This document shows positions 1,303 to 38,849 of a DNA stretch of 38,849 bases, one piece after another; position 1 is the stretch's first letter; every line of letters begins with the position of its first letter. The DNA lies in IMG/VR virus record IMGVR_UViG_3300037502_002082, positions 1-38,849 of that record. The stretch is one strand, 5' to 3'. This DNA comes from a virus. The position numbers were made by a program, and so were the translations under genes. Under the pieces are notes generated by a model, which saw only the letters and a program-made list of their open reading frames with translations, was not told the origin of the DNA and ran no database searches.

Positions 1303-2064
1303 TTAGAAATCGTTATTCCAAACGTTGTATTTGATTGCGTACTCCTTAACGACTGCGACGTAAATTTCAATCAATTTTTTATCATCCGCTATGACGTCGA
1401 CTTTTGTTAATTTATCTCTCCTACTTTTCGAAGCACCTTCATCAGCCATTCGTCTACGCTTGTTAGTCAAACGGGTTTGCAAAGATACACCTGCTCTCTT
1501 ATCTACTTCTAAGAAAATCATCGATCGAACTTCTTGATGCACTTGTCCTGTATTCCCTTGGATACGAACGATTTTATTAATTAACCTATTTGAATCTTCT
1601 CGCCAATTAGTAGAATTAACACCTACGATTTCAGAAATATTATCTACTTTCGACTCAAGTTTTTTTGTTGCTAGTTCCTGATTAGCAACAGCTTGGAAAA
1701 TACCTTGGAACATTTGAAGTTCTGGGCTTAAACGACTTGTGTCTGGAATATAAGAACCCGTCTTCCTGATTTTTGGCAATACATCAGTTGCTAGCCAATC
1801 CTGAAATTTCTCAGCTAAAGCGTTGTTAGCTTTAAAAGCAAGCTTATAAACCATTGCTTCACTTATGAAATCACCTTTCCCAACATCTTGGGAAAGATAT
1901 TTTTTTAAATACTTATTTACCGTTTCCCATCGGGTGTACTCTTTGTTATTTTTAATTTGCGTAAAACCTAGACTTTTAGCTACTGTTTCAATATCAAACA
2001 ACGATTCCCCATTTTCCGTTTTCACTTCTAATTGAAATAGATTGTTTTCAAATTTTTGATTCAT
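1303..2064 (-). CDS. Phage antirepressor, Bro-N plus ORF6C-like domain
   Basis: A 253-aa protein. Residues about 8-105 look like a Bro-N domain: FQLEVKTENGES, a DIETVAKSLGF helix, then KFQDWLATDVLPKIRKTGSY, the usual end of this domain. A linker with a QELATKKLESKVD coiled segment leads to a C-terminal domain (about 165-253) resembling ORF6C. Such proteins bind DNA and counteract phage repressors. GGAGAAACG precedes the ATG. It is the second gene of the early rightmost operon after the Cro-like gene, the usual place for an antirepressor. Confidence 0.85.
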   Translation of the reverse strand: MNQKFENNLFQLEVKTENGESLFDIETVAKSLGFTQIKNNKEYTRWETVNKYLKKYLSQDVGKGDFISEAMVYKLAFKANNALAEKFQDWLATDVLPKIRKTGSYIPDTSRLSPELQMFQGIFQAVANQELATKKLESKVDNISEIVGVNSTNWREDSNRLINKIVRIQGNTGQVHQEVRSMIFLEVDKRAGVSLQTRLTNKRRRMADEGASKSRRDKLTKVDVIADDKKLIEIYVAVVKEYAIKYNVWNNDF

Positions 2065-2081: not shown

Positions 2082-2285
2082 CTATAATTCGTACATCGAA
2101 ATAATCGCATCGATAATTCGATTAGCTTCTGCCGAAGTATTCTTTCCGTTAATGATTAGCGATAGTTGAGCTTTGCTAATTTCAAATCGTTCAGCGATCA
2201 TCGTGTAAGTTAAAAATTTGTTGTTGCTTACATACGCTTTAATTTTTTCTCTATCCTTAAGAGTTATTTCTGCAATATCAGACAT
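2082..2285 (-). CDS. Cro-like helix-turn-helix regulator
   Basis: A 67-aa protein whose central part (TYTMIAERFEISKAQLSLII) fits a helix-turn-helix of the lambda-repressor/Cro type. It is the first gene leftward from the operator region and is opposed to the CI gene, as expected for Cro. AAAGGAG is seven bases before the ATG. It probably represses the CI-side promoter by binding the TAGAG inverted repeats between 2354 and 2543. It is separated from its candidate promoter by a leader of about 200 bases. Confidence 0.85.
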   Translation of the reverse strand: MSDIAEITLKDREKIKAYVSNNKFLTYTMIAERFEISKAQLSLIINGKNTSAEANRIIDAIISMYEL

Positions 2286-2580: not shown

Positions 2581-2910
2581 ATGAATCCGTATGAAAAAAT
2601 TAAAGAATTATCTAGGTTAAAAAAGATTTCTATTCGGGAATTAGAGAAACAATTGGGTTATTCGAACGGTTATTTTAGCAAATGGAAAAGCGTTTCTCCT
2701 AATTCTGACGGACTAACTAAAGTTGCAGATTATTTTGGTGTTAGCGTTGATTATCTATTAGGTAGAGAAGAGTTGAAAAAACCTGCTAATTTAACAGTTG
2801 AGGAGGCTTTAGCGTCTGTTATGAGTAGCAACGGAGAGCCGTTAACTGAAAACGATAGAGAAATTTTAAAGGGAATTATTGAAGCATACATTGAAAAAAG
2901 TAAAAATTAA
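2581..2910 (+). CDS. CI-like repressor (short, HTH only)
   Basis: A 109-aa protein with an N-terminal HTH_3 domain (about 5-61): IRELEKQLGYSNGYFSKWK is the helix-turn-helix and VADYFGVSVDYLLGRE the family ending. A short C-terminal segment follows (VEEALASVMSS, LTENDREILKGIIEAY), probably for multimerisation. There is no S24 self-cleavage domain. Paired with the ImmA-type peptidase next door, this resembles the ImmR/ImmA switch of ICEBs1 and many Gram-positive phages, where repressor inactivation is by proteolysis in trans. The ribosome site (AAAGG, 11 bases away) is weak, suggesting low expression. Confidence 0.9.
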   Translation: MNPYEKIKELSRLKKISIRELEKQLGYSNGYFSKWKSVSPNSDGLTKVADYFGVSVDYLLGREELKKPANLTVEEALASVMSSNGEPLTENDREILKGIIEAYIEKSKN

Positions 2911-2923
2911 GTAGGTGTAATGG

Positions 2924-3337
2924 TTGAAGAGAAAAATTAAAGAGATTATTGACCAACTCGGCGTTAACATCGAGGAGCATACAGGGCTTGACGCCGATGG
3001 TCATTACATTGCCATGATTAATACAATTGTTTTAGATGCTCAATTAGCTGGTTTAAAAAGAACTCTAGTGTTATTACACGAGCTCGGCCACGCCTGCTTG
3101 CATCACAATAACCACGAATTATACAACTTAACTGCCTCTATGCACTATAAAATGGAGACTGAAGCAGATTTGTTTATGATTAATAGAATTATGGAACGTC
3201 GATTCAACGATTCTGATTTTGACCCTGACTCTTTTAATTATATAAATTTTTTAGAGAGTTATGAACTGAATCCTAATTATGAATCCGTTGTAAAGGAGAT
3301 GGTTAAGAGTTATTATATGCGCACGAAAATCGTGTGA
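2924..3337 (+). CDS. immA: ImmA/IrrE-type zinc metallopeptidase
   Basis: A 137-aa protein of the M78 family. HELGH at residues 52-56 supplies the two zinc histidines and catalytic glutamate; the METEAD motif at 77-82 holds the likely third ligand. ImmA-type enzymes cleave the cognate short repressor after DNA damage, inducing the prophage. The start is TTG at 2924: an ATG four bases earlier opens a six-codon frame only. GTAGGTG is a modest ribosome site. It lies 13 bases after cI in one operon. A weak hairpin with a following T-run overlaps its stop (about 3321-3349). Confidence 0.9.
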   Translation: MKRKIKEIIDQLGVNIEEHTGLDADGHYIAMINTIVLDAQLAGLKRTLVLLHELGHACLHHNNHELYNLTASMHYKMETEADLFMINRIMERRFNDSDFDPDSFNYINFLESYELNPNYESVVKEMVKSYYMRTKIV

Positions 3338-3360
3338 TTAAATTTTTTTACCCAACAAAA

Positions 3361-3372
3361 GAACATATGTTC
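3361..3372. promoter_or_regulatory. LexA (SOS) box
   Basis: GAACATATGTTC, a perfect 12-base palindrome followed by G, fits the Firmicute LexA/DinR consensus GAAC-N4-GTTC exactly. It sits 22 bases before the start of the unknown gene at 3395 and downstream of immA. A gene transcribed from here would be shut by host LexA and opened by DNA damage. No clear -35/-10 pair is visible, so the exact promoter is open. Confidence 0.7.
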
Positions 3373-3394
3373 GAAGAGAGCAAGGGGGATTACA

Positions 3395-3709
3395 ATGAAT
3401 TTTACAGATTTTAAGGAATGGCTAGAAGAAAATACCAATGGTTACGGAATATTTATTAGAAAAGCTTGCGATTTGCAAGAAGAAAAGAATAAAAAAAGAA
3501 CCGGGAAGAATAAGAAATGGACCGAAGCGAGAATCACAAAGGAAGTTGAATCTATGTGGTTAACACTAGCCAAGATCGCTCACGATAAGATAAGAGCTGA
3601 AAAAGGAATCCCTGATTACAACGGGAAACAAATCTGGATTGATTTTATGAACGAAATCAACTTTATTGAAATGTTTGACGATAGCGTCAGCGATATGGAA
3701 TTCGAATAA
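3395..3709 (+). CDS. Hypothetical protein in lysogeny module, probably SOS-controlled
   Basis: A 104-aa protein, MNFTDFKEWLEENTNGYG at the start, a highly basic centre (EEKNKKRTGKNKKWTEARI) and an acidic C-terminus. I do not recognise a family. AAGGGGG precedes the ATG at good distance. A canonical LexA box stands immediately upstream, and the integrase gene starts 11 bases after its stop, so both may be raised by DNA damage. Position between immA and int plus LexA control would fit an inducer or ImmA helper, but that is inference. Confidence 0.75.
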   Translation: MNFTDFKEWLEENTNGYGIFIRKACDLQEEKNKKRTGKNKKWTEARITKEVESMWLTLAKIAHDKIRAEKGIPDYNGKQIWIDFMNEINFIEMFDDSVSDMEFE

Positions 3710-3720
3710 GAGGTGAAGAA

Positions 3721-4947
3721 ATGGCTACTTATAGAAAACGAGGGAAAAATTGGGAGTATCGAATAAGGTATGTGGATCCAATAACAGGTCTGAAGGCTGA
3801 AAAAAGCAAAGGTGGTTTTAGGACGAAGGCAGAAGCAGAATATGCAGCATCAGAAGTTTTTATTGATGTGAAGGACGGTCACGGTATTGGCATCAACAAA
3901 GAAATATCCTTTGTTGATTTTAGTAATGCCTGGTTCGAGGAATACAAACCAACGGTTAAAGAAACATCCGTCAGAAGTAGATATTCTTATTTAATGGTCA
4001 TTCAAGAAACATTTCAAAAGTTGAAGTTGAAAAACTTAACTTTATCCATCTACAAAAAGAAAATGGGAGAATTATCTCAGATTTACAGCAAAAACACGCT
4101 CATATCAATGAATCAGATTTGCCAAATGATTGCTAAAAAAGCTGTTAGCGACGGATATTTTAAGGCAAACCCTATCGCGAATTTTAAAATACCTTACTAT
4201 CCAGATCGAGAAGAAGAAATTACGTTTTGGTCACTTGATACCGTGAAAAAATTCGAAGAATACTGTCGTCGTGATATAGCGAAAAAACGTTCGAAAAAGT
4301 TTGCGCATATCCCATTTGAAAAACAACGAGACTTAGCTATGTTTTTTTTAATGTTGTACGGCGGTTTAAGAATTGGAGAGGCATGCGCACTGTCGCCTAA
4401 TGACTATTTCCCAATTACAAGGGAAATTGATATCTCAAAAACCTTAGCATCACCTAAGCAAAACCAAATCAAAAGCTCCTGGAGAATCTTCCCTCCAAAA
4501 ACGAAAAATGCTTATAGAACCGTCCCGTTACCGGAAGTCGCTTATAAGCAAATTGAAATGTGGCTAAAGATGCGAAAAGAATATGTTTTACTCTTCCCTG
4601 AAGCCAAAGACTCTATTTATTTATTTTGTCAGCGGGACGGATCTCCTTTAACTACTAGAGATCTAAGATATCACTTTGACGCCATCGTTAAAAAAGCGGA
4701 TTTACCTAAAATAACCCCGCACAACCTAAGACATACTTATACTGCTTTGCAGATACAAGCTGGTATCGACCCCAAATCGTTACAAATGTTATTAGGTCAT
4801 GCGAGTATTAAAACCACGTTAAATATTTATGCCCATCTCACCGAAGATAAGAAAAGAGAAAACATTTCTCGATTCGACCAAATGCTTAAAAATTCTGAAA
4901 GTGGGGCAAAAGCGGGGCAAGGTGATAAAACCACGTTTTTAGCATAG
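3721..4947 (+). CDS. int: Tyrosine site-specific integrase
   Basis: A 408-aa tyrosine recombinase. Residues 1-50 form an arm-type DNA-binding domain (RKRGKNWEYRIRYVDP..GFRTKAEAE). A SAM-like core-binding domain covers about 62-160 and the catalytic domain about 170-385. Catalytic residues visible: Arg217 (GGLRIGEA), Lys262 region, His334 and Arg337 (HNLRHTY), His360 (LGHAS), Tyr370 (NIYAHL). GAGGTG is six bases before the ATG. It ends in a Gly/Lys-rich tail encoded by a GGGGCAAAAGCGGGGC repeat that recurs beyond the gene near attP. It joins phage and host attachment sites. Confidence 0.95.
   Translation: MATYRKRGKNWEYRIRYVDPITGLKAEKSKGGFRTKAEAEYAASEVFIDVKDGHGIGINKEISFVDFSNAWFEEYKPTVKETSVRSRYSYLMVIQETFQKLKLKNLTLSIYKKKMGELSQIYSKNTLISMNQICQMIAKKAVSDGYFKANPIANFKIPYYPDREEEITFWSLDTVKKFEEYCRRDIAKKRSKKFAHIPFEKQRDLAMFFLMLYGGLRIGEACALSPNDYFPITREIDISKTLASPKQNQIKSSWRIFPPKTKNAYRTVPLPEVAYKQIEMWLKMRKEYVLLFPEAKDSIYLFCQRDGSPLTTRDLRYHFDAIVKKADLPKITPHNLRHTYTALQIQAGIDPKSLQMLLGHASIKTTLNIYAHLTEDKKRENISRFDQMLKNSESGAKAGQGDKTTFLA
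4901..4919 (+). repeat. attP arm repeat, copy 1 (inside int 3' end)
   Basis: GTGGGGCAAAAGCGGGGCA, matching 18 of 19 bases at 5114-5132, 213 bases away. Each copy itself contains two GGGGCA units. Direct repeats flanking a likely crossover region suggest integrase arm sites. Confidence 0.5.
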
Positions 4948-5215
4948 CATAAAGGCCTTGCTACAAAGCTTTTTCGAAGATACTTTCGATTTTCGTATTA
5001 ATTAAATCAATTAATCATGTCGAAGTATAGCATGATATAGCTTTGTAAATAATAAGTGAAACACATTTTTATAAAGTTTATGTATCATACTTTAGTATAG
5101 TTTATTAAAAAAAGCGGGGCAAAAGCGGGGCACCTTACTTTCGTTTTTACCTATGATATCTTTCATTTTATTGGCTTATCTGATAATCTTAAACTAACAA
5201 AATAAAATGGAGTGA
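4948..5215. other. attP candidate region
   Basis: This 270-base gap after int has no gene. It is very AT-rich and full of inverted repeats: TACAAAGCT (4962-4970) with AGCTTTGTA (5039-5047), ATCATG (5014-5019) with CATGAT (5031-5036), and TCGAA/TTCGA arms near 4974-4990. GGGGCA-type direct repeats lie at both sides. The position directly downstream of an integrase, with cargo genes beyond, is where attP normally lies. The exact crossover core cannot be told without the host attachment site. Confidence 0.55.
5114..5132 (+). repeat. attP arm repeat, copy 2
   Basis: GCGGGGCAAAAGCGGGGCA, the second copy of the 19-base direct repeat found in the int 3' end at 4901-4919. It lies in non-coding DNA, so it is not kept for protein reasons. 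Confidence 0.5.
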
Positions 5216-5221
5216 TTTTAA

Positions 5222-5950
5222 ATGGGATTGTTTGATAAATTAAAAGACAAAGCAACTGGCCAAATGGATAACTTGAAATCAAAAGATATCGGTGGTAAAA
5301 ATATCGGCGATTTAATTAAACCGCTAGAAGACGCTACCAATAATATTATGACTAATCACAAAGAAGGCAAGAAAGAACAAATTCTTGCTTTACCAGTAAA
5401 AAAACCGTTCTCTAACCAGCTAGGCTCTATCACCATTCGTCGCGACATCAATAATTACTTCTACCTATCAAACAAATATGATCCGCAAGCACCACGATAT
5501 AAATTTGAACGCTTTGACTGGGGTGGCAGCTCATTTACAGAAGAAACTATCACTAAAGGTGATATTAAAACAAAAGGACGCATGGGTCAAACGTTAGTCG
5601 GCGCTGCAATCGGTGGACAAACTGGCGCTATAATCGGTGCGTCTGGTAAACGTAAAAGCAAAGTTGATACTACTTCTAAAACAACGACTACTGAAAACGG
5701 TAGCGAAGGTACTCTTTATCTAAGAAGTATTGATGTTTCTTCTATCAAAGAGGTAAAAGTATTTCTGGTTTCTTCTGAAGCTGAAAACTTGGAACGCTTT
5801 ATTGCGAACGTGAATTACGAGACGCAAGAAGTTGAAGCCCCTGAATTAGATTCGATGGCGGAATTAACACGACTAAAAGAAATGCTTGATATGGAGTTAA
5901 TCACTCAAGAGGATTTCGATAGCAAGAAAAAACAAATATTAGGCCTATGA
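5222..5950 (+). CDS. SHOCT-domain protein (lysogenic cargo)
   Basis: A 242-aa protein. The start MGLFDKLKDKATGQM is an amphipathic helix. A glycine-rich segment (TLVGAAIGGQTGAIIGASG, about 124-142) looks like a membrane-associating glycine zipper. The last about 32 residues (MAELTRLKEMLDMELITQEDF) are a SHOCT domain, a short C-terminal module common in oligomeric or membrane-associated proteins. GGAGTG precedes the ATG. It lies between attP and lysin but faces away from late transcription, which is the usual spot and orientation of genes expressed by the lysogen. The exact role is unknown. Confidence 0.8.
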   Translation: MGLFDKLKDKATGQMDNLKSKDIGGKNIGDLIKPLEDATNNIMTNHKEGKKEQILALPVKKPFSNQLGSITIRRDINNYFYLSNKYDPQAPRYKFERFDWGGSSFTEETITKGDIKTKGRMGQTLVGAAIGGQTGAIIGASGKRKSKVDTTSKTTTTENGSEGTLYLRSIDVSSIKEVKVFLVSSEAENLERFIANVNYETQEVEAPELDSMAELTRLKEMLDMELITQEDFDSKKKQILGL

Positions 5951-6237
5951 AAAAGAAACTAATTAAAGAACCACCTCGTAAAATATCCACTATAATCGGC
6001 TCACATGCAACTACAAGAGCGGAACGCATTCAAGAAACAATCTTATATACTGTTGTGGCTGTTGTTGTGTTAGTTGTCGCTACATGGGCTTTACATCTTA
6101 CAGATGGCTGGTTAGTAATGTTGGTTTGGGCGATTATTTTAGGTGTTTATATTTTCGCTCTTTACGATACTTGGACAAGACAAAGCACCGAAGAGAGAGA
6201 AGTGATCGATAATCCTGTTTATAGTGACGAGGAATAA
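5947..6237 (+). CDS. Two-helix membrane protein (lysogenic cargo)
   Basis: A 96-aa protein with a basic N-terminus, two transmembrane helices (about 31-50 and 55-73: TVVAVVVLVVATWAL and WLVMLVWAIILGVYIFAL) and an acidic tail. Its ATG overlaps the stop of the SHOCT gene (ATGA), so the two are translationally coupled and probably act together at the membrane. A strong terminator follows at once. Candidate role: surface change or superinfection exclusion in the lysogen; this is inference from location only. Confidence 0.75.
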   Translation: MKKKLIKEPPRKISTIIGSHATTRAERIQETILYTVVAVVVLVVATWALHLTDGWLVMLVWAIILGVYIFALYDTWTRQSTEEREVIDNPVYSDEE

Positions 6238-6249
6238 CACATAACGCAA

Positions 6250-6286
6250 AAAAGCCGGTCAATCCAATTAAGGACGACCGGCTTTT
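6250..6286. terminator. Bidirectional terminator between cargo operon and lysin
   Basis: An 11-base perfect stem AAAAGCCGGTC/GACCGGCTTTT with a 15-base loop. A-runs and T-runs on both sides let it stop transcription from both the plus-strand cargo genes and the minus-strand lysin. Confidence 0.85.
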
Positions 6287-6289
6287 AAA

Positions 6290-7210
6290 TTAATACATTT
6301 TATTCACTAAATTTTGGATAACTACAGGATCATATCCTGCTTTTTTAAGGTTTGCGACACGTGTTGTGCCGTTGCCCCAACCGCCAATCCCACGATAAAT
6401 TTCATTGGCGATAACTTGATTTGTTTTTTTCTTCGGTGTGGTTGTGCCTAACAACTTTTTATTGACGTCATCTTGCACCTTTTTAGCGTTGTAACCCGCT
6501 TTCGTTAAGCGATTGATTCTGTCTTGACCACTTCCCCATTTCCCAGCAATTACTTCGTCACGGATTGCGGTCGCGGATAATAATTTAGGTTTTGTTGGTG
6601 CAACTGGTTTTGGAGCTACTGGTGCCGGTGTTGGTTTAGTGCTAGTTGTAATTTTTTCACCTGTAATTGCTTCGATTAATTCTTTTGCTAGTGTATCAAC
6701 ATTTTTAGTTAAACTCTGGATTTCCTTATCGTTTGTGATGAATCCCAATTCTAGCAAGCGGTAATTTTGCCCTCGTTTAGCGTAAACGTTTAGGTTTAAT
6801 AAATTATCACGTTTATTAATGCCTTGCGTATTTCTAACGGAACCCCACCAACCAGCATATTTTTTAATCACGTTGGCTAAAGCTAAATCTTGTGCATCTG
6901 GATTAAACCCTGTTGAAATGATTACGTGACCGCCTGTTGCTGTTTTGTTACTTGAGGCATCTTCATGGATTTCTGTCACGCTTGCAACTTTAGGGGTGGT
7001 GTAAGCCCCTTTGCCTAGTTGAGATTCTTGGTACATATCTTTTGTAATATCGTAAAATGTCACTTTGCTATTTTCTAACAACGCAGCATATTTCTTTAAT
7101 GCTGGTAATAAGACTTTCCGATTCCAATCTCGTTCGTTAAGACCTAATTCTTTATTTACTCCGCCTGGGTCGTTTGCTCCATGGCCTAATACGATTAAAT
7201 GTTCTTGCAT
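6290..7210 (-). CDS. Endolysin, N-acetylmuramoyl-L-alanine amidase with Cpl-7 repeats
   Basis: A 306-aa lysin. Residues 1-182 are an Amidase_3-type zinc domain: His10 (LGHGANDPGG), Glu26, His82 (EIHEDASSN) and Glu154 (LLELGFITN) are the expected zinc and catalytic residues. A Pro-rich linker (190-208) leads to two CW_7/Cpl-7 wall-binding repeats (about 212-253, EVIAGKWGSGQDRINRLTKAGY; about 265-306, GIGGWGNGTTR..KAGYDP). The ATG at 7208-7210 follows AGTAGGAATAATC; an ATG 18 bases earlier has no ribosome site. There is no signal peptide, so export depends on the holin. It is the last late gene. Confidence 0.93.
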   Translation of the reverse strand: MQEHLIVLGHGANDPGGVNKELGLNERDWNRKVLLPALKKYAALLENSKVTFYDITKDMYQESQLGKGAYTTPKVASVTEIHEDASSNKTATGGHVIISTGFNPDAQDLALANVIKKYAGWWGSVRNTQGINKRDNLLNLNVYAKRGQNYRLLELGFITNDKEIQSLTKNVDTLAKELIEAITGEKITTSTKPTPAPVAPKPVAPTKPKLLSATAIRDEVIAGKWGSGQDRINRLTKAGYNAKKVQDDVNKKLLGTTTPKKKTNQVIANEIYRGIGGWGNGTTRVANLKKAGYDPVVIQNLVNKMY

Positions 7211-7262
7211 GATTATTCCTACTTTCATTTTTTATTTTCGCACTATGAAATCGCTTTTACTT

Positions 7263-8942: not shown

Positions 8943-11900
8943 TTATGCTATTTTTTCTAGTTCTTCAATACGTTTCTTTAATCTAAATACCTCAGTTTCT
9001 AAAGTATATAGTCTCTGTCCATAACTCGAGCTATTCGCTATTAGTTTTATTACTTTAAAATTCACCTCATCGGCTATCTTTGAGGCTTTAGTAGCAATAA
9101 CGTCAAGTTCCTGAATAGCTTTCCAGCCTAGGGAATTCATAGCGTACTGTTCAACCCCATCACCATCGATTATCTCATTTGGTGTATTATACCCTTTACC
9201 GATGACCAAACCAATGCGAGTTTTCAATCGTCCACTCTCAAGTTCTGATTTTAACTTATAGTCATAAATCGTAGATTCTCGAATTATACTTAATGCACTG
9301 TCTGTGTATTCCTTAATATCGGTTTTGAATTCTTCCATAGATCCTGTTGGAAATGACGATGCTCTAACTGGAATATAGGTACTTGTCGTACCCGAAACTG
9401 TAGCTCTAACCTCGCCCCCGCTAGTACCTCGTACATACATGTGTGTCGCTGTAGTATCGATCGCAGTAGCGTAAAATACACTTGCTCGAATGTTTTGAAA
9501 CTGATCTGTAGTTCCAGGTCTAGTAACTCTTAGTTCACCACCAGAAGCCGGTCGAACGTAGATGTGCGTACCACCTGTTAGACTGTTATCGTCCAGCGTG
9601 TTTGCAAATATACCACTAGCTCTCAACGATTGGTATGCGGTAGTAGAACCACTACCTGTAACTCTTACTTCTCCAGTTGAAAATCTAGGTCGTAAATATA
9701 AATGACTTACCGTGCTAAATGGCGTATTGACATTAACATAGTTACCAACAAAGCCTTCAGCTCGAATCGGTCGATATACATAATCCGTAACCGCACCCCC
9801 ACCTGGAGTACTGTCATACCTAACTACCCGGACCTCTCCTCCCTGAGCCTCTCCTTCAGTTCCATCAACTCCACCAGTTCCAAGATAAATATTGTAAGTG
9901 TTAGTACCAATGATGCCGGTATTAATAACCGTCTGGTTGAATTGTGACCTTAATGTACCGTTTACATTGTATATATCTACTCCGGTTTCATTAATTTCGA
10001 CACGTCTGCCAGTTGCTGTATTTCTGAATACTGCGTTTTGACCTTGTACGCTGAATTGACCAGTTGCTGACGTTGAAGATATGACTAATCCATTTACCGT
10101 TCCAGCGTTAATCTTGTTCGCATCCAAACTAACAATCTTAGCACTACCTATCGTCGCATTGGCAATCTTAGCTCCACTTACCGCTAGGTCCGCAATATGT
10201 GCAGTCTTGATTACACTGTTGTCGATGTACGTATCGCCTTTAATTTGAATCCTCTTACTAGCGATCAGGATGGATTCAGGGCTTAAATTAATCTGTGAGA
10301 TCAGTTCACCTTTTGTTACACGCAAGTTAAGTTGTTCTCCCAAACTGTTAATTGCTGAAGTATGCCCATTCGCAAGCTCTGTCGTTTGCGTCCACTGATT
10401 TGCGAGTGCCGTAACCGTCGTTTTATCAGCATAGGTATTAGCGACCGTCGTCTTGAAGCCGCTTAGGTTTTGCTCGAGGGCTGAGAAAGCTGTAACTGTT
10501 GTGTAATCTTCTGGTGCTGGTGACCAATCCGTAGCTTTGTTACCTTTTTCAATTTTAACACGCCTTATGATTGGAAAGTTACCAGTGTCATAGGTGCCGT
10601 AAAATGCTAACATTGCCCTTGTTTCAGTAGTGTTGCTTAAACTAGGTTTTAATCCTTCAAACTTAAACCTCTGATATTCTTTAGTTACACTCACACCAGC
10701 ATATACAAAACTATATTTAGATCCGTTTCCATTCTGCATATATACTTGTATAATACTTCTTTTGGATATATCTGATGACTTCAAATCTAATGATAATGAA
10801 TACACTTCATTTATTCCATGTTCATCGAAGATAGGCGCTAAGTCTGCAAACTGAACAAACTCTCTTCCTCCAATAGCACTAACTTCTCTATCACTGTTTT
10901 TCAGTAAATTCCGACCACCAATTTCCATACCCTCAAGGTTGTTTTTAACCTGTGTAACGGTACTGTTCAAACCACTATAACTAGTTTCTAACAGTCCAAT
11001 AGACGTAGTATGCCCGTCAGTCTTAGTGGTTAAAGTAGTGACTTTACCATCAGTTACCTTAATACTAGCCTCAGTGGCAGACACTCTACCAGTTAATGTA
11101 TCAACTGCTGTTTGATTTGCTTTGAGCGCAATTTGACCTGCTTGAGTGGTGATCTTACCTTCGGCAGTTGCAACACGTCCAGTAAGCGTATTTACGTCTG
11201 TTGTATTTGCCTTTAATGCAATTTGACCTGCTTGAGTCGTAATATTGCCCTCAGCAGTAGATACCCTTCCAGTTAATGTCTGGACGTCCGTACTGTTGGC
11301 TTTCAATTCAATTTGACCAGCTATAGTACTAATCGAACCCTCCGCATTTGTAACCCTTCCGGCAATAGCGTCAACCGTTGTACTGTTGGCCTTACTCTCA
11401 ATCAAAGTTGCATGTTGTGAAACTGTAGTACTTAGGTTTTGATTCGCCGTTTTGACTTCCAAAGCAGTAACTAGAGAATCATTTAACGCATTGTCTAATA
11501 CTGGTGTGGATGTTGTAGTAGCGCCATTACTGTAAGTTGTAGCAACCCTAACCCAATAATACTTACCACTACTCCACACCGGGACCGTAGCTAACCACGA
11601 ACCACCAGTCTGAGTAGATTTACTTGTGGACAGGTAGAACTGTTGTTCCACACTTGTGATTGTAGGTGCGTTAGCCCCAGGATCACCTTTTAACCCTTGG
11701 TCTCCCTTAGCCCCAATCTTACCGACTGAGTAGCTCACAACTGATGTATTATCATTCAACACAATGGTTGTTCTGGTCCAAATATAAACATCAGGACTTG
11801 GCGTAGCGTGTGTAGATGCCCATCCAGTAGTTGGAGGCGTATTACCATTTGTTGACGTAGCGTAGGCAACTGTACTTGATTTAAAGGATTTGTTAAAAGC

Positions 11901-33364: not shown

Positions 33365-34048
33365 ATGTTAAAAAATATTAATGTTAGTTTTAGAAATGGT
33401 ATTAGGATGATTGATAATATCGATATCCCAAATTCCTGTCCACATTGTGGCGAAGTATTACAACCGAATGTAATATCTGCTACATCTCACTATCAATCCA
33501 CGGATGAATTTAAAACTATAGGTGTGTTTTTGCAATGTACTTCTCAAGACTGTCTTAATTACTTTTCTCTTCATTTCGAATCAGATTACACCTCAGGATT
33601 ACTATATAAACTTATTCCATACGCGTACAGACCGCCAATTAAAATCGAGCTTCCACAAAACATAGAAAAAGTTTCAGAAGCATTTGTTGAAATTTATACA
33701 CAAGCTACTAAAGCTGAAGCAGAACAACTAGATCAAATTGCTGGAGTTGGATATAGAAAATCTCTTGAGTTTTTAATCAAAGACTATGCAATAAGAAATA
33801 ATCCTGATAAAGAAGAAAGCATTAAGAACAAAATGTTAGGACCTGTTATTTCTGAATATCTAACAGATTTTACTAAAATCCAAAATTTAGCCAAGGCTGC
33901 AACTTGGATAGGAAATGATGAAACACACTACGTAAGACGACACGATGATAAAGATATACGTGATATGAAACAGTTTATAAGATCAGCATCGCAATTTATA
34001 GCTGCTGATTATGATGCTGATTTAGCTGAGGAATTTATTAACGAATAA
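33365..34048 (+). CDS. DUF4145-domain protein (cargo, possible defence gene)
   Basis: A 227-aa protein. NSCPHCGEVLQPNVIS near the N-terminus is a zinc-ribbon-like CxxC, with a second Cys pair (LQCTSQDC), and IAGVGYRKSLEFLIKDYAI in the middle is the DUF4145 hallmark; the C-terminus is helical. DUF4145 often occurs near restriction or defence genes, with no settled activity. ATG at 33365 is chosen because AAAAGGAG stands eight bases before it; an ATG 18 bases earlier overlaps that site. The gene is alone on the plus strand in the replication module with its own promoter. Confidence 0.8.
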   Translation: MLKNINVSFRNGIRMIDNIDIPNSCPHCGEVLQPNVISATSHYQSTDEFKTIGVFLQCTSQDCLNYFSLHFESDYTSGLLYKLIPYAYRPPIKIELPQNIEKVSEAFVEIYTQATKAEAEQLDQIAGVGYRKSLEFLIKDYAIRNNPDKEESIKNKMLGPVISEYLTDFTKIQNLAKAATWIGNDETHYVRRHDDKDIRDMKQFIRSASQFIAADYDADLAEEFINE

Positions 34049-34049
34049 G

Positions 34050-34187
34050 TTATTGTTCTTTATTCTTCAAGTACTGAATCAACATACGATTAGTTTCAAT
34101 TGCCTTCTCTAATCCATGAGAATTTAGTTCTAGCAATGCTTCTAAAAATACAATTCTCTCTTTTAATTCTTTAATTTCTTGTTCCAT
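34050..34187 (-). CDS. Small coiled-coil protein, 45 aa
   Basis: Starts MEQEIKELKERIVFLEALLE, a strong coiled-coil heptad pattern, and ends with YLKNKEQ. AAAGGAAG is eight bases before the ATG. It lies between the helicase gene and the convergent DUF4145 gene; the two stop codons almost touch. Function unknown; it may bind a replication protein. Confidence 0.65.
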   Translation of the reverse strand: MEQEIKELKERIVFLEALLELNSHGLEKAIETNRMLIQYLKNKEQ

Positions 34188-34202
34188 TCAATATCTTCCT
34201 TT

Positions 34203-35792
34203 CTATTCCGGCACATATTCCGTAGGTCTAACACCTGCAGGCAATCGCCATCCATTCGCTGCAATACGATTAATCATCTTACTTGCACCTTCGAATGGCC
34301 ATGTCCCAACATTTTTAAAGCCACGTTGTTCCAATAATCGAATCTGTTTTGGTGTAGCTAGTCCTGCTTCTTTCCGTTTTTGTAGACGGTCAAGCATGAG
34401 ACTGGCTTTTCCTGCGTTATCAATAGCGTCAGGCATGATACCTAATTTTTCTAAGGCACTAACTTGTTTTTCTGATGGTGGTCCCATTTCCCAACCGAAG
34501 CTAGGTACATAGCTTGTTAAATCTTCCGCTTGAATCGACATTTCAAATTGCAATGGATCCACAAGACGTTGTTTTCTTTTTCTCATTTCAGCCAATTGTT
34601 TCGCTAATGCTTCTTCTCGTTCAGAAATGACATCTTTTTCTGCTTGAACTTCTGCTTGTTCAATATCCACTGCTAAGCCATCAAGTCCAGCTTCTTCAAT
34701 ATTCTCAGTCATTTTCTTGGCCACATCGTCGCTACTTGCAATTAGATGAGCTGGATGACATAACTCATGGCGTTCCACATGCCAAAGGAAATCTAATAGT
34801 AATAAGTTTTCTTTCCCCGGGAACAATCGTGTTCCACGTCCGACCATTTGCGAATAAAGCGAACGGACTTTTGTTGGTCTTAGCACCACAATGCAATCAA
34901 CAGATGGACAATCCCAACCTTCGGTAAGTAACATCGAGTTACAAAGTACATTGTATTTATCGTTTTCAAAGTCTTCTAAGACTTGTGCACGATCTTTTGA
35001 TTCGCCATTCACTTCTGCTGCTCTCATTCCTTTTTCGTTTAAAATATCTCGGAACTTTTTGGAAGTCTTAACTAAAGGAAGAAACACTACTGATTTTCTA
35101 TCAGAACAATGTTTAACCATTTCATCCGCAATTTGATGCAAGTAAGGATCTAATGCCGTCCCTAAGTCTCGCGTACTAAAATCTCCAGCTTGTTGGGCAA
35201 CAGATGTTAAATCTAACTGCAAAGGAATGGTTAAAGCTGTGATTGGTGAAAGGTAACCTGATTTAATTGCAGCAGGTAATGAATACTCATAGGCAAGTGA
35301 TTCAAAGTAAGTGCCTAGATTTTGCATATCTCCACGATCTGGTGTAGCTGTAACGCCAAGAACATTTGATTCTTCGAAGTGATTTAATACAAATTGATAA
35401 CCGGCACTAATACAATGATGGGCCTCGTCAACAATAATCGTGTCAAAATATTCTGGTGGAAATTGTCTTAGTCTTTTTTCTCGTTGCATCGTTTGAACAG
35501 AACCAACGACTACTCTGAAAAAACTTCCTAAGCTTGTATTTTCTGCTTTTTCTAATGCCGTTTTTAGTCCAGTAGACTTTTCTAATTTTTCAGAAGCTTG
35601 GTCCAGTAATTCGCCCCGATGAGCTAAGACGAGCACACGCTCGCCTAGTCTCACACGGTCTTCAATGACCTTACTGAACACAATTGTTTTACCGCAACCC
35701 GTGGGAAGAACGAGTAACGTTTTTTTCCGTCCTGATTCCCATTCCTGTTGGATTGCAGACCTTGCTTCTTCCTGGTAAGGTCTAAGTTTCAA
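34203..35792 (-). CDS. DEAH-box SF2 helicase
   Basis: A 529-aa helicase. Motifs: LPTGCGKT (29-36), LVLAHRGELL, DEAHH (122-126), TATPDRG (148-154), LTEGWDCPSVD (289-299) and SQMVGRGTR (314-322). The last about 150 residues form a helical/charged tail with a second helical repeat region. It resembles the SSL2/RecG-like helicases of phage replication modules. TTG start at 35790-35792 follows AAGGAGGAG. It likely remodels DNA in recombination-linked replication together with the DUF669 and Sak4-like neighbours. Confidence 0.9.
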   Translation of the reverse strand: MKLRPYQEEARSAIQQEWESGRKKTLLVLPTGCGKTIVFSKVIEDRVRLGERVLVLAHRGELLDQASEKLEKSTGLKTALEKAENTSLGSFFRVVVGSVQTMQREKRLRQFPPEYFDTIIVDEAHHCISAGYQFVLNHFEESNVLGVTATPDRGDMQNLGTYFESLAYEYSLPAAIKSGYLSPITALTIPLQLDLTSVAQQAGDFSTRDLGTALDPYLHQIADEMVKHCSDRKSVVFLPLVKTSKKFRDILNEKGMRAAEVNGESKDRAQVLEDFENDKYNVLCNSMLLTEGWDCPSVDCIVVLRPTKVRSLYSQMVGRGTRLFPGKENLLLLDFLWHVERHELCHPAHLIASSDDVAKKMTENIEEAGLDGLAVDIEQAEVQAEKDVISEREEALAKQLAEMRKRKQRLVDPLQFEMSIQAEDLTSYVPSFGWEMGPPSEKQVSALEKLGIMPDAIDNAGKASLMLDRLQKRKEAGLATPKQIRLLEQRGFKNVGTWPFEGASKMINRIAANGWRLPAGVRPTEYVPE

Positions 35793-35807
35793 TTGAATTA
35801 CTCCTCC

Positions 35808-36392
35808 TTAAAATGCTCCGGCTTGAAATCCACCAGGGTTTTGTGTTTGCTGTGGCGCTTGATTAAATCCTTGTTGTTGATTGAAAATTGGTTGTTGTTG
35901 AGTTGGTGCTTGATTAAAATTCTGTTGCGGTTGAACTGGAGGAGTATTATTTACTACACCTTGATTAGCAGAGCCCTTTAAAAATTCTTTGATACGGTTG
36001 TTTTGACGTTCTTCACCTTTGCTGATATAAGAATTGATTTCCAACTTCACGCGTCCTTGTGAACCGATGACAAGTGACCAGTTCGGATTGAATGGTTGTC
36101 CAATGACTGGCGTTTGACCGATTGCACTAAAGAATTCCGTTAACTTCCACTGGAATTTCTTCATCATGTAAAGACGTTCTTTGACAGTCGTTTTTCCTTC
36201 GGCACCCGAAACTTCAATCGATAATTCGGCGTAAGGCGCTCCGTTCGGGATCTTGTCGCTTTGACCGTCGTAAATTTTACGTTCCATTCCTGTTACCGTA
36301 AATTGATACTCACCTGCAGGCAACAAAGCAAAGGTACTTTCCTCTGCAATAAAACCTGTGTCCCATCCTAAAAATTCATTTTCGTTATTCAT
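35808..36392 (-). CDS. DUF669 protein, ssDNA-binding type
   Basis: A 194-aa protein. An OB-like beta-rich N-terminal domain (about 1-145) with LLPAGEYQFTVTGMERKIYD fits DUF669. It is followed by a Gln/Asn/Pro-rich low-complexity tail (about 146-194), as in single-strand DNA-binding proteins, ending QAGAF. It sits between the AAA_24 gene and the helicase gene and probably coats ssDNA for annealing or replication. AAGGAGGAAA precedes the ATG. Confidence 0.82.
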   Translation of the reverse strand: MNNENEFLGWDTGFIAEESTFALLPAGEYQFTVTGMERKIYDGQSDKIPNGAPYAELSIEVSGAEGKTTVKERLYMMKKFQWKLTEFFSAIGQTPVIGQPFNPNWSLVIGSQGRVKLEINSYISKGEERQNNRIKEFLKGSANQGVVNNTPPVQPQQNFNQAPTQQQPIFNQQQGFNQAPQQTQNPGGFQAGAF

Positions 36393-36406
36393 TTATATTT
36401 TCCTCC

Positions 36407-37435
36407 TTAAAATGCTCTAATTTTTGTATTTAATAAATTCATTGCTGCGGACCAATTCGTTACTAAGTAATCCCATAAATCGCTAGGCACATTTTCCACT
36501 GGTGTATCAACTGGCATAAAGCCACCTGTATGAATCACTGCCATTATTTCTTCGGTTGTAACATGATCCAATTGCATTAAATCAGCAATTGATTTCGGGA
36601 TATGTGGAGATACTTCCACAATTGCTTCACGTCCAAAATCAGGTTCAATCACTGGTTGCGTGTTTACTTGTGGTTCTGTTGCGAGTGGTTGTTCTGTTTG
36701 AGTTTGGACTGGACTAATGGCCATAGTTGCTTCGTTGATGATTTGAGCAATTTGCCCATAATCAAACGGTAATTCGTCAGCTAATCCCATGCGATTTTTG
36801 GCATCCCATGCAGGGCGGTGAGTAGTAAACATCATACGTTGACCGCCTGTTGCTTTTTTACTATTGGTTTTACTATCTGTAATCACAATCGTTTTGTAGT
36901 TGGCGAATAAAACCATATCAGCCCATTCTTTTACAAGTGGAGCTGTTTTCTTTTCGAGTTTCAACTCGTAACGGTCGAAAGCTCCCATTTCATCTGGTTC
37001 TTCTTTTTTACGTAACCAAGCATGAGCGGTCACAACAACATGAATCCCCTGATCAATAATGTCACTTAGTTTGTTCAACAAGTTTCCAAATTCTTTTGAT
37101 AAGGCGATATACTTAGTCCCATAATCGTTTGAGCTATCCGTCCATTTTCCTTGGGCCATTAAATGACGTTTACAAATTTCTTCAGCCCAGTCGATTGTGT
37201 CGATAACAAGAGTCTGACAAGGTTTGTTTTGCTTCACGAACTCCACTTGCTGGAGTAACATCGTCCAACTTGTAGGCTTATCAAAACGCTGTACGTTCAT
37301 ATGTAACGTTGAATCCTCAGTATCAATGAAGAGTGGATTCGGAAACTGACTGGCAAAGGTAGACTTCCCAATCCCTTCCACTCCATACAAAACAACCTTC
37401 TGTGCTTTTGGTACTTTTCCGCTACTAATATTCAT
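36407..37435 (-). CDS. AAA_24/Sak4-like RecA-fold NTPase
   Basis: A 342-aa protein. Walker A GVEGIGKST (18-26), Walker B TLVIDTIDW (75-83), and TAHAWLRKKEEPDEM in the sensor area fit AAA_24 phage nucleotide-binding proteins, of which Sak4 is a single-strand annealing example. A C-terminal tail from about 245 is Gln/Pro-rich, ending TKIRAF. The ATG at 37433-37435 overlaps the previous stop (TAATG), with AAAGGGG ten bases upstream; a start seven codons earlier is not supported. It is likely part of a recombination set with the DUF669 protein. Confidence 0.82.
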   Translation of the reverse strand: MNISSGKVPKAQKVVLYGVEGIGKSTFASQFPNPLFIDTEDSTLHMNVQRFDKPTSWTMLLQQVEFVKQNKPCQTLVIDTIDWAEEICKRHLMAQGKWTDSSNDYGTKYIALSKEFGNLLNKLSDIIDQGIHVVVTAHAWLRKKEEPDEMGAFDRYELKLEKKTAPLVKEWADMVLFANYKTIVITDSKTNSKKATGGQRMMFTTHRPAWDAKNRMGLADELPFDYGQIAQIINEATMAISPVQTQTEQPLATEPQVNTQPVIEPDFGREAIVEVSPHIPKSIADLMQLDHVTTEEIMAVIHTGGFMPVDTPVENVPSDLWDYLVTNWSAAMNLLNTKIRAF

Positions 37436-38790
37436 TAAAATGCTGCCCCTTTCCATGTTGGTGTTATTGGTGGTACTGGTGTATCTGTTTTAGTTGTTGG
37501 TGCAAATGAATCAGCATGTGCTTGTTGTTGCGTTAGTGCAGCCGTTTCATCTTTAATGACATAACCATCTTCGATAATAATTTGGCACTCCTCCCCTGTT
37601 GAAACACGTGTGGCAATGGCTTGAAGCCCTTCTTGTTCTAACCACTTAGAAAACTCGTTGAGCGTGATCATATCCATTTGTTCCAGCTTATCCAGGAGAA
37701 CAAAGCCACATTCTGGTTTTAATTTCCGTACAATTGCAGTCGAGACTTTTAGTTGGTCAGAACCACTCATATCCGTCCAGCCTTGACCGTTATAAGTCAA
37801 TTCACCATCTTTGACTGACAGACCAGGTAATGGTAATTCAGCGTTATCTAACAACTTCATCCGTTGTTCACGAATCGCTTTAATCGCTTCGTCTAGTTCT
37901 TTGTATTGATTTAGATAGTTCTCAGCATCTTGTTCCGCTTTTTCTTTATCAAGATTGGCACGAACCTTTAAGTTGATTTGTTCCACGTTTTGAAGGCTAT
38001 GCTCGAGCTCGGCAGTTGATTGGTCTTGTAAGTCCTGTGCTGAAGTTTTTGCAATGGATAAATCATTTTGAGTAACTTCATGCTTAGCAATCATTTCCTG
38101 TAATTGATTTTTCACTCGTTCGATTTCTTGTGCTTCATAATCAAATTGGGTTTGTAGCCTTTGTGCGTTCTCACGTTTGCGCTGATTTTCGCCATTGATC
38201 GCTAGAATCATTTGTTGCTGCTGAATTAATTCCATCGTAGAAACTAAATCACTCGGCGCATCAGGATAATGGATTTGTTCTTCGGCAAACTTTTTCTTTT
38301 GATCCGCAATCCGTCCAATTTGATAGCGCTCGTTGTAGATTGCTTGTTCTTCCATGTCTAACTTAATTAATTCTTCACCAATACCGATTATTTGCAGTAA
38401 GGTATTCGCTTTTTCTTTGCTTGTTGATTCCATGAACTTTGGTAAATCAATGGCTAACTCTTCCACAAAACTATTGAGGAGTTGCTGACCACCTTTGTTC
38501 CCTTGTGGATCCAAAACAGTTAAGGAACTATTCTTGCCTTTACGTTCTACGATGAGTCCGTTTGACATGGTAATTCGTAAGTTTGGTGGAGTTACAGAGC
38601 CTTCACGGTGTGGGTTTGAAGGTTTATACTTATTACCGCCCAAAGCCCATGCAATCGCATCTAGGACGCTTGTCTTACCTTGATTGTTATTCCCTCCTAA
38701 AATAGTCAAGCCGTTTTGTGTTGGTTCGATTACTACTGCCTTAACACGTTTGACGTTTTCAATTTCTAGGTTGTTAATTTTGACTGACAT
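37435..38790 (-). CDS. SbcC/Rad50-like AAA ATPase
   Basis: A 451-aa protein with Walker A GGNNNQGKTS (32-41) at the N-terminus, a long coiled-coil middle (about 165-310, QTQFDYEAQEIERVKNQLQE) and a C-terminal ABC-ATPase part with MSGSDQLKVSTAIV (signature-like) and FVLLDKLEQM (Walker B-like). It is short for SbcC, so it is an SMC-like phage ATPase used in recombination; a nuclease partner is not evident. It ends WKGAAF. AAGGAG is 11 bases before the ATG. The first 30 codons are repeated at 1-90 because the molecule is circular. Confidence 0.85.
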   Translation of the reverse strand: MSVKINNLEIENVKRVKAVVIEPTQNGLTILGGNNNQGKTSVLDAIAWALGGNKYKPSNPHREGSVTPPNLRITMSNGLIVERKGKNSSLTVLDPQGNKGGQQLLNSFVEELAIDLPKFMESTSKEKANTLLQIIGIGEELIKLDMEEQAIYNERYQIGRIADQKKKFAEEQIHYPDAPSDLVSTMELIQQQQMILAINGENQRKRENAQRLQTQFDYEAQEIERVKNQLQEMIAKHEVTQNDLSIAKTSAQDLQDQSTAELEHSLQNVEQINLKVRANLDKEKAEQDAENYLNQYKELDEAIKAIREQRMKLLDNAELPLPGLSVKDGELTYNGQGWTDMSGSDQLKVSTAIVRKLKPECGFVLLDKLEQMDMITLNEFSKWLEQEGLQAIATRVSTGEECQIIIEDGYVIKDETAALTQQQAHADSFAPTTKTDTPVPPITPTWKGAAF

Positions 38791-38849
38791 GTGCTACACT
38801 CTCCTTATATTCATCTTTTTTTTTTTGACTGATTAGCTTTCCGGCGGTC
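38701..38849. repeat. Right copy of the terminal overlap
   Basis: Repeats 1-148: 126 bases exact, then an extra G at 38827 and T instead of G at 38839. In this copy the stop codon of the gene at 125-388 would be lost, so the last bases are probably assembly-edge errors. They could also reflect a minority variant. Confidence 0.85.

Follow-up and report, generated by a model that had tools for sequence, protein, structure and literature searches.

The main finding of this study is a perfect LexA-type palindrome, GAACATATGTTC, that stands directly before two adjoining genes of a temperate phage, one encoding a 104-amino-acid (104-aa) protein of the phrog_7823 family and the other a tyrosine integrase. 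The phage is known from an IMG/VR virus record, which was analysed over its full 38,849 nucleotides (hereafter the window). Sequence comparison confirms that the LexA-type box is real, and we consider it likely that the host LexA represses the operon formed by the 104-aa gene and the integrase gene, that DNA damage releases this repression, and that the small protein serves as a general SOS accessory. In the mechanism that we propose, the palindrome would be an operator for host LexA overlapping or adjoining the promoter of the two-gene operon, and in a lysogen LexA would keep the operon at a low level. Upon DNA damage, RecA would trigger the cleavage of LexA, resulting in a pulse of both the small protein and the integrase. 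The capacity for excision would then rise in parallel to, and independently of, the relief of CI repression through ImmA, while the small protein would act in trans, for example on RecA or LexA, on replication or on recombination, and most likely not on ImmA or CI specifically.

The genes of this region agree with those given in the preliminary description of the window, and the CI-like repressor, ImmA, the 104-aa gene and the integrase are all encoded on the plus strand. The features are as follows.

1303-2064, minus strand: Bro-N antirepressor of the divergent early operon (Pfam Bro-N, E 8e-12; phrog_373 anti-repressor, E 2e-31)
2082-2285, minus strand: small helix-turn-helix (HTH) protein in a Cro-like position, with weak HTH matches
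2581-2910, plus strand: short CI-like repressor of 109 aa with an HTH only (HTH_19, E 9e-5; phrog_8, E 2e-20)
2924-3337, plus strand: ImmA/IrrE-type metallopeptidase with a TTG start (Pfam Peptidase_M78, E 2.6e-7)
3320-3336, plus strand: hairpin CGCACGAAAATCGTGTG followed by a T-run at the end of immA, weak and terminator-like (a consensus match only)
3343-3348, plus strand: T-tract, possibly a -35 element, kept in the alignment of relatives
3361-3372, plus strand: putative LexA-type operator GAACATATGTTC (palindrome, position and conservation)
3366-3371, plus strand: TATGTT, the centre of the palindrome, which may be a -10 element
3382-3388, plus strand: ribosome-binding site AAGGGGG, read from the sequence
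3395-3709, plus strand: all-helical 104-aa protein of the phrog_7823 family (phrog_7823, E 5e-32; AlphaFold2 pLDDT 92)
3721-4947, plus strand: tyrosine integrase in the same putative operon (Phage_integrase, E 8e-28; arm-binding domain, E 1.7e-6)

The gap between immA and the 104-aa gene is 57 bp and that between the 104-aa gene and the integrase gene only 11 bp, and the latter two genes would share one transcript. On its other side, the integrase gene adjoins the lysis genes (4947-7228), and both ends of the window fall inside phage genes, so that the record has the appearance of a phage genome in circularly permuted form, with no flanking host DNA.

Analysis of the box reveals that its half-sites, GAAC-N4-GTTC as in LexA operators of the DinR/Cheo type, are complete and that 22 bases separate its end from the ATG at 3395, just as the preliminary description had it in reporting a Firmicute LexA consensus at this place. 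The palindrome is the sole match in the window at up to two mismatches, and the number of perfect 12-mers expected from base composition is 0.004 per window and 5e-6 in the gap between immA and the 104-aa gene. The bare half-sites occur twice in the window against an expectation of 0.64, which alone would not be significant; the case for more than chance therefore comes from the complete palindrome together with its location and conservation. We attribute the other exact occurrence of the half-sites, at position 11637 within a tail gene, to chance. A promoter scan finds no good -35/-10 pair at the palindrome, where the centre of the box may provide the -10 element and the T-tract a poor -35 element. 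A promoter of the form TTGTAA-17-TATTAT at 3288-3316, inside immA, was rejected as the main promoter because the terminator-like hairpin lies downstream of it.

Comparison with related phages, which the preliminary description had named as one check on its proposal, bears the box out. Either GAACATATGTTC or GAACATACGTTC is present at -33 or -34 in all 28 Enterococcus-type loci from IMG/VR, whose family genes are 47-49% identical to that of the window and keep the order CI, ImmA, family gene and integrase. Enterococcus phage vB_ElaS_B1578 likewise carries GAACATACGTTC, at a distance of 22 bp upstream of a family gene with 47% identity, in the same order as in the window, namely antirepressor, CI, ImmA, family gene and integrase. 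The record of this phage (PQ283533.1) and that of 'Acinetobacter phage D2SVT' (PQ554527.1) are identical over 8309 bp, and the Acinetobacter host label of the latter is doubtful. When seven leaders are aligned, conservation is highest in the box and the upstream T-tract, the leaders being otherwise diverged. On the branch of the family tree that holds the window, the box is found in eight of nine rows, support within this tree being limited.

To look beyond these relatives, about 180 loci of the family were reduced to 73 representatives of less than 80% identity, and a box was counted when it had no more than one mismatch and lay within 120 bp upstream of the gene. By this measure 32 of the 73 representatives have a box, 13 of them with exact half-sites, against 2.1 and 0.09, respectively, in shuffled leaders and 10 and 0 for the best of 11 permuted palindromes. 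Among the other genes of the same loci a box precedes 21 of 333 (exact half-sites in 6), a difference from the family gene with a Fisher p of about 4e-14, although these statistics treat the representatives as independent, an assumption that related sequences violate. The 32 boxes are A-rich and read GAACATAYGTTCG, and their positions cluster from -24 to -35. The remaining 41 representatives have no box by the same measure, including Enterococcus-type chromosomal copies in LexA-bearing hosts, and hence LexA control of phrog_7823 genes appears to be widespread without extending to every member. One locus (L178, genome G162) has two boxes in a single operon, at -28 before the family gene and at +332 before the integrase gene, the latter with a different centre.

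The presence of LexA was assessed in the hosts of relatives. In all 18 host genomes examined, a box built from the same half-sites, with no more than one mismatch, stands before lexA itself, and a LexA DNA-binding domain scores over the cut-off in 79 of the 80 family-bearing genomes. The sole exception among the 80, G270, is taken to be a Streptococcus, because its copy groups with those of Streptococcus phages. It has been reported that Streptococcaceae are without LexA (PMC3616900), and the Streptococcus members of the family that we found have no box. A prophage in another genome (G281), which does have LexA, is 94% identical to the replication module of the window (33740-38849), yet it carries a different regulation/integrase module with neither the family gene nor the box. 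This indicates that the feature belongs to the module and not to the whole phage lineage. Between the window and this prophage, the exchange of replication and regulation/integrase modules is sharply mosaic.

The family is present in 63 of 398 Lactobacillales genomes sampled; its detection needs alignments, as scans of contigs, viral and genomic, with the 104-aa sequence alone give no matches. Its members occur in three settings. In temperate phages the family gene follows the repressor genes and precedes the integrase gene, and roughly one representative in three has an integrase gene downstream on the same strand. In Lactobacillus phage LR2 the gene (3001-3318 of locus L051) is unannotated in the public record, and NZ_CP091215.1 and similar 38-40 kb E. 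faecium plasmid records show a whole temperate-phage gene order, these being phage DNA or a phage-plasmid filed as a plasmid. On Lactiplantibacillus plasmids the family gene is divergent from a Y-family polymerase gene (umuC) with GAACGTATGTTC or GAACACATGTTC between them, and a YolD-like gene, although its YolD match is weak (E 0.08), is a further neighbour; in another genome the family gene is codirectional with a Y-family polymerase gene and has a box at -49. The third setting comprises lone chromosomal genes. One group of these lies beside an aminopeptidase-like gene and has a box at -31, and copies of the Enterococcus type, close to groEL or to other genes, mostly have none although their hosts have LexA. 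Chromosomal orphans lack CI, ImmA and integrase and often still stand behind a box, and boxes without an integrase are found with both plasmid and chromosomal copies. Elsewhere the family lies beside other types of CI, beside longer CI proteins without ImmA, or with no repressor at all.

By sequence, the integrase is a second recurrent target of LexA-type boxes. Latilactobacillus phages have their box downstream of the family gene, some 60 bp ahead of the integrase gene. Among 56 integrases of Enterococcus and Lactobacillaceae without an adjoining family gene, 11 have a box within 160 bp, whereas about 2.2 are expected from shuffling; the corresponding count for Streptococcus integrases is 0 of 15 against 0.5 expected, a contrast that is weak alone. 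Close relatives of the window integrase are few, and one that is 56% identical (L245) has neither the family gene nor a box. It has been shown that LexA of B. subtilis binds in vitro to the promoter of one XerD-type phage integrase from the human gut (PMC3998124). Together with the boxes before integrases, this binding leads us to read the box in the window as the putative operator of the gene-integrase operon. The part of the preliminary description that proposed a direct SOS input at this place is supported for this operon as a sequence-based prediction, whereas a second input through ImmA and CI is not supported. Among its suggestions for the 104-aa protein, that of raising integrase levels appears to fit best, because boxes precede integrase genes without the family gene or lie between the two.

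The 104-aa protein matches the phrog_7823 profile over its full length (residues 1-104 on 1-103 of 103) and has no match in Pfam or NCBIfam. The AlphaFold2 model, built with 26 family members, is confident (pTM 0.81) and consists of five helices; no fold in PDB or BFVD matches it, and a sequence search of solved structures likewise finds no match. Conserved features are a basic loop around residues 31-41, Trp81, which is invariant, and an acidic segment at the C-terminus that ends in FE. Searches of solved structures by sequence and fold, and of protein families, give no similarity to a known SOS modulator. A defence-system reading was rejected, the PADLOC matches being isolated and weak. The SOS-type control in three kinds of replicon suggests that the protein is accessory to the damage response, probably as a general SOS factor.

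Several other explanations for the box and the protein need to be considered. That the palindrome arose by chance, or that it serves as an operator for a repressor of the phage and not for host LexA, is very unlikely: the expectation for half-sites alone is 0.6 per window, but the motif is conserved over replicons and repressors that are unrelated and also precedes the host lexA genes. The preliminary description had also suggested that the protein activates ImmA or acts as an antirepressor of CI, giving SOS a second route to the lytic switch. SOS-controlled antirepressors do exist in other phages, such as Tum of phage 186 and the Gifsy antirepressors, and the gene directly follows CI and ImmA both in the window and in E. 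faecium phages. However, the family also occurs beside longer CI proteins without ImmA, where no repressor is present, on plasmids and as lone chromosomal genes. The plasmid and lone chromosomal copies make a function in ImmA or CI regulation unlikely, and we give this suggestion little credence.

It is also conceivable, although unlikely, that the small protein is dedicated to excision, as a recombination directionality factor (RDF) or other integrase partner, with LexA control serving the Int reaction only. The downstream same-strand integrases, at a distance of 11 bp in the window, and the boxes that precede integrases without the family gene would agree with such a role. Against it stand the plasmid copies beside umuC and the chromosomal orphans without an integrase, often with boxes, as well as the box in Latilactobacillus phages, which excludes the family gene but keeps the integrase; nor is there any match to the known excisionase, Xis and RDF families in Pfam, NCBIfam or PHROGs. 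We regard as possible, though short of probable, that the protein modulates the host SOS response through the RecA filament or LexA, or assists a mutagenic polymerase, which is a sharper version of the last step of our preferred explanation. Such a modulator would be consistent with boxes before phage, plasmid and chromosomal copies, with umuC and the YolD-like gene as plasmid neighbours, and with the conserved basic loop and acidic C-terminus, and it has precedents in PsiB, GIL01 gp7 and ICEBs1 RamA/RamT, likewise small element-encoded proteins tied to SOS (PMC11841131). However, neither sequence nor fold resembles that of a solved protein, and the YolD match is weak.

Prophage induction is usually explained by the inactivation of the phage repressor alone. 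Our comparison suggests that the integrase, too, is recurrently wired directly to the damage repressor of the host, which would let one signal set off excision and lytic derepression separately, each with its own timing. It also exposes a widespread family of small proteins that is often under SOS-type control in mobile elements and chromosomes alike. We consider it possible, though short of probable, that phrog_7823 is an unrecognised family of SOS effectors with a fold of its own that tunes the damage response of the host. If this is true, a family common to phages, plasmids and chromosomes of Lactobacillales has repeatedly been placed under LexA and acts on RecA/LexA, on the exchange of polymerases or on division, which would enable damaged cells to support excision and lytic replication or else plasmid mutagenesis.

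Several known systems resemble the one proposed here. Operon I of SaPI elements carries packaging genes, not an integrase, and is not known to encode a phrog_7823 protein. Its likeness is that of an operon on a Gram-positive mobile element that is reported to be controlled by the LexA of the host (Ubeda 2007, cited in PMC10584840). Direct LexA repression of a recombinase is also described for the SOS-controlled integrases of integrons and for ISCR transposases (PMC8946536, PMC13393415), but they belong to other elements, use the Gram-negative LexA motif and have no small partner protein. For phrog_7823, a family without a described function, the literature searched describes no SOS control, and in the literature searched for an enterococcal LexA regulon or a LexA-controlled integrase operon the only direct precedent is PMC3998124. 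In that case a LexA (DinR-type) box directly controls a XerD-type phage integrase in Firmicutes, as is proposed for the window, although at a single metagenomic site without a partner gene or an analysis of conservation. In contrast, the window presents a putative LexA-controlled operon with an extra gene, an arrangement that is conserved in many phages of Enterococcus and Lactobacillaceae.
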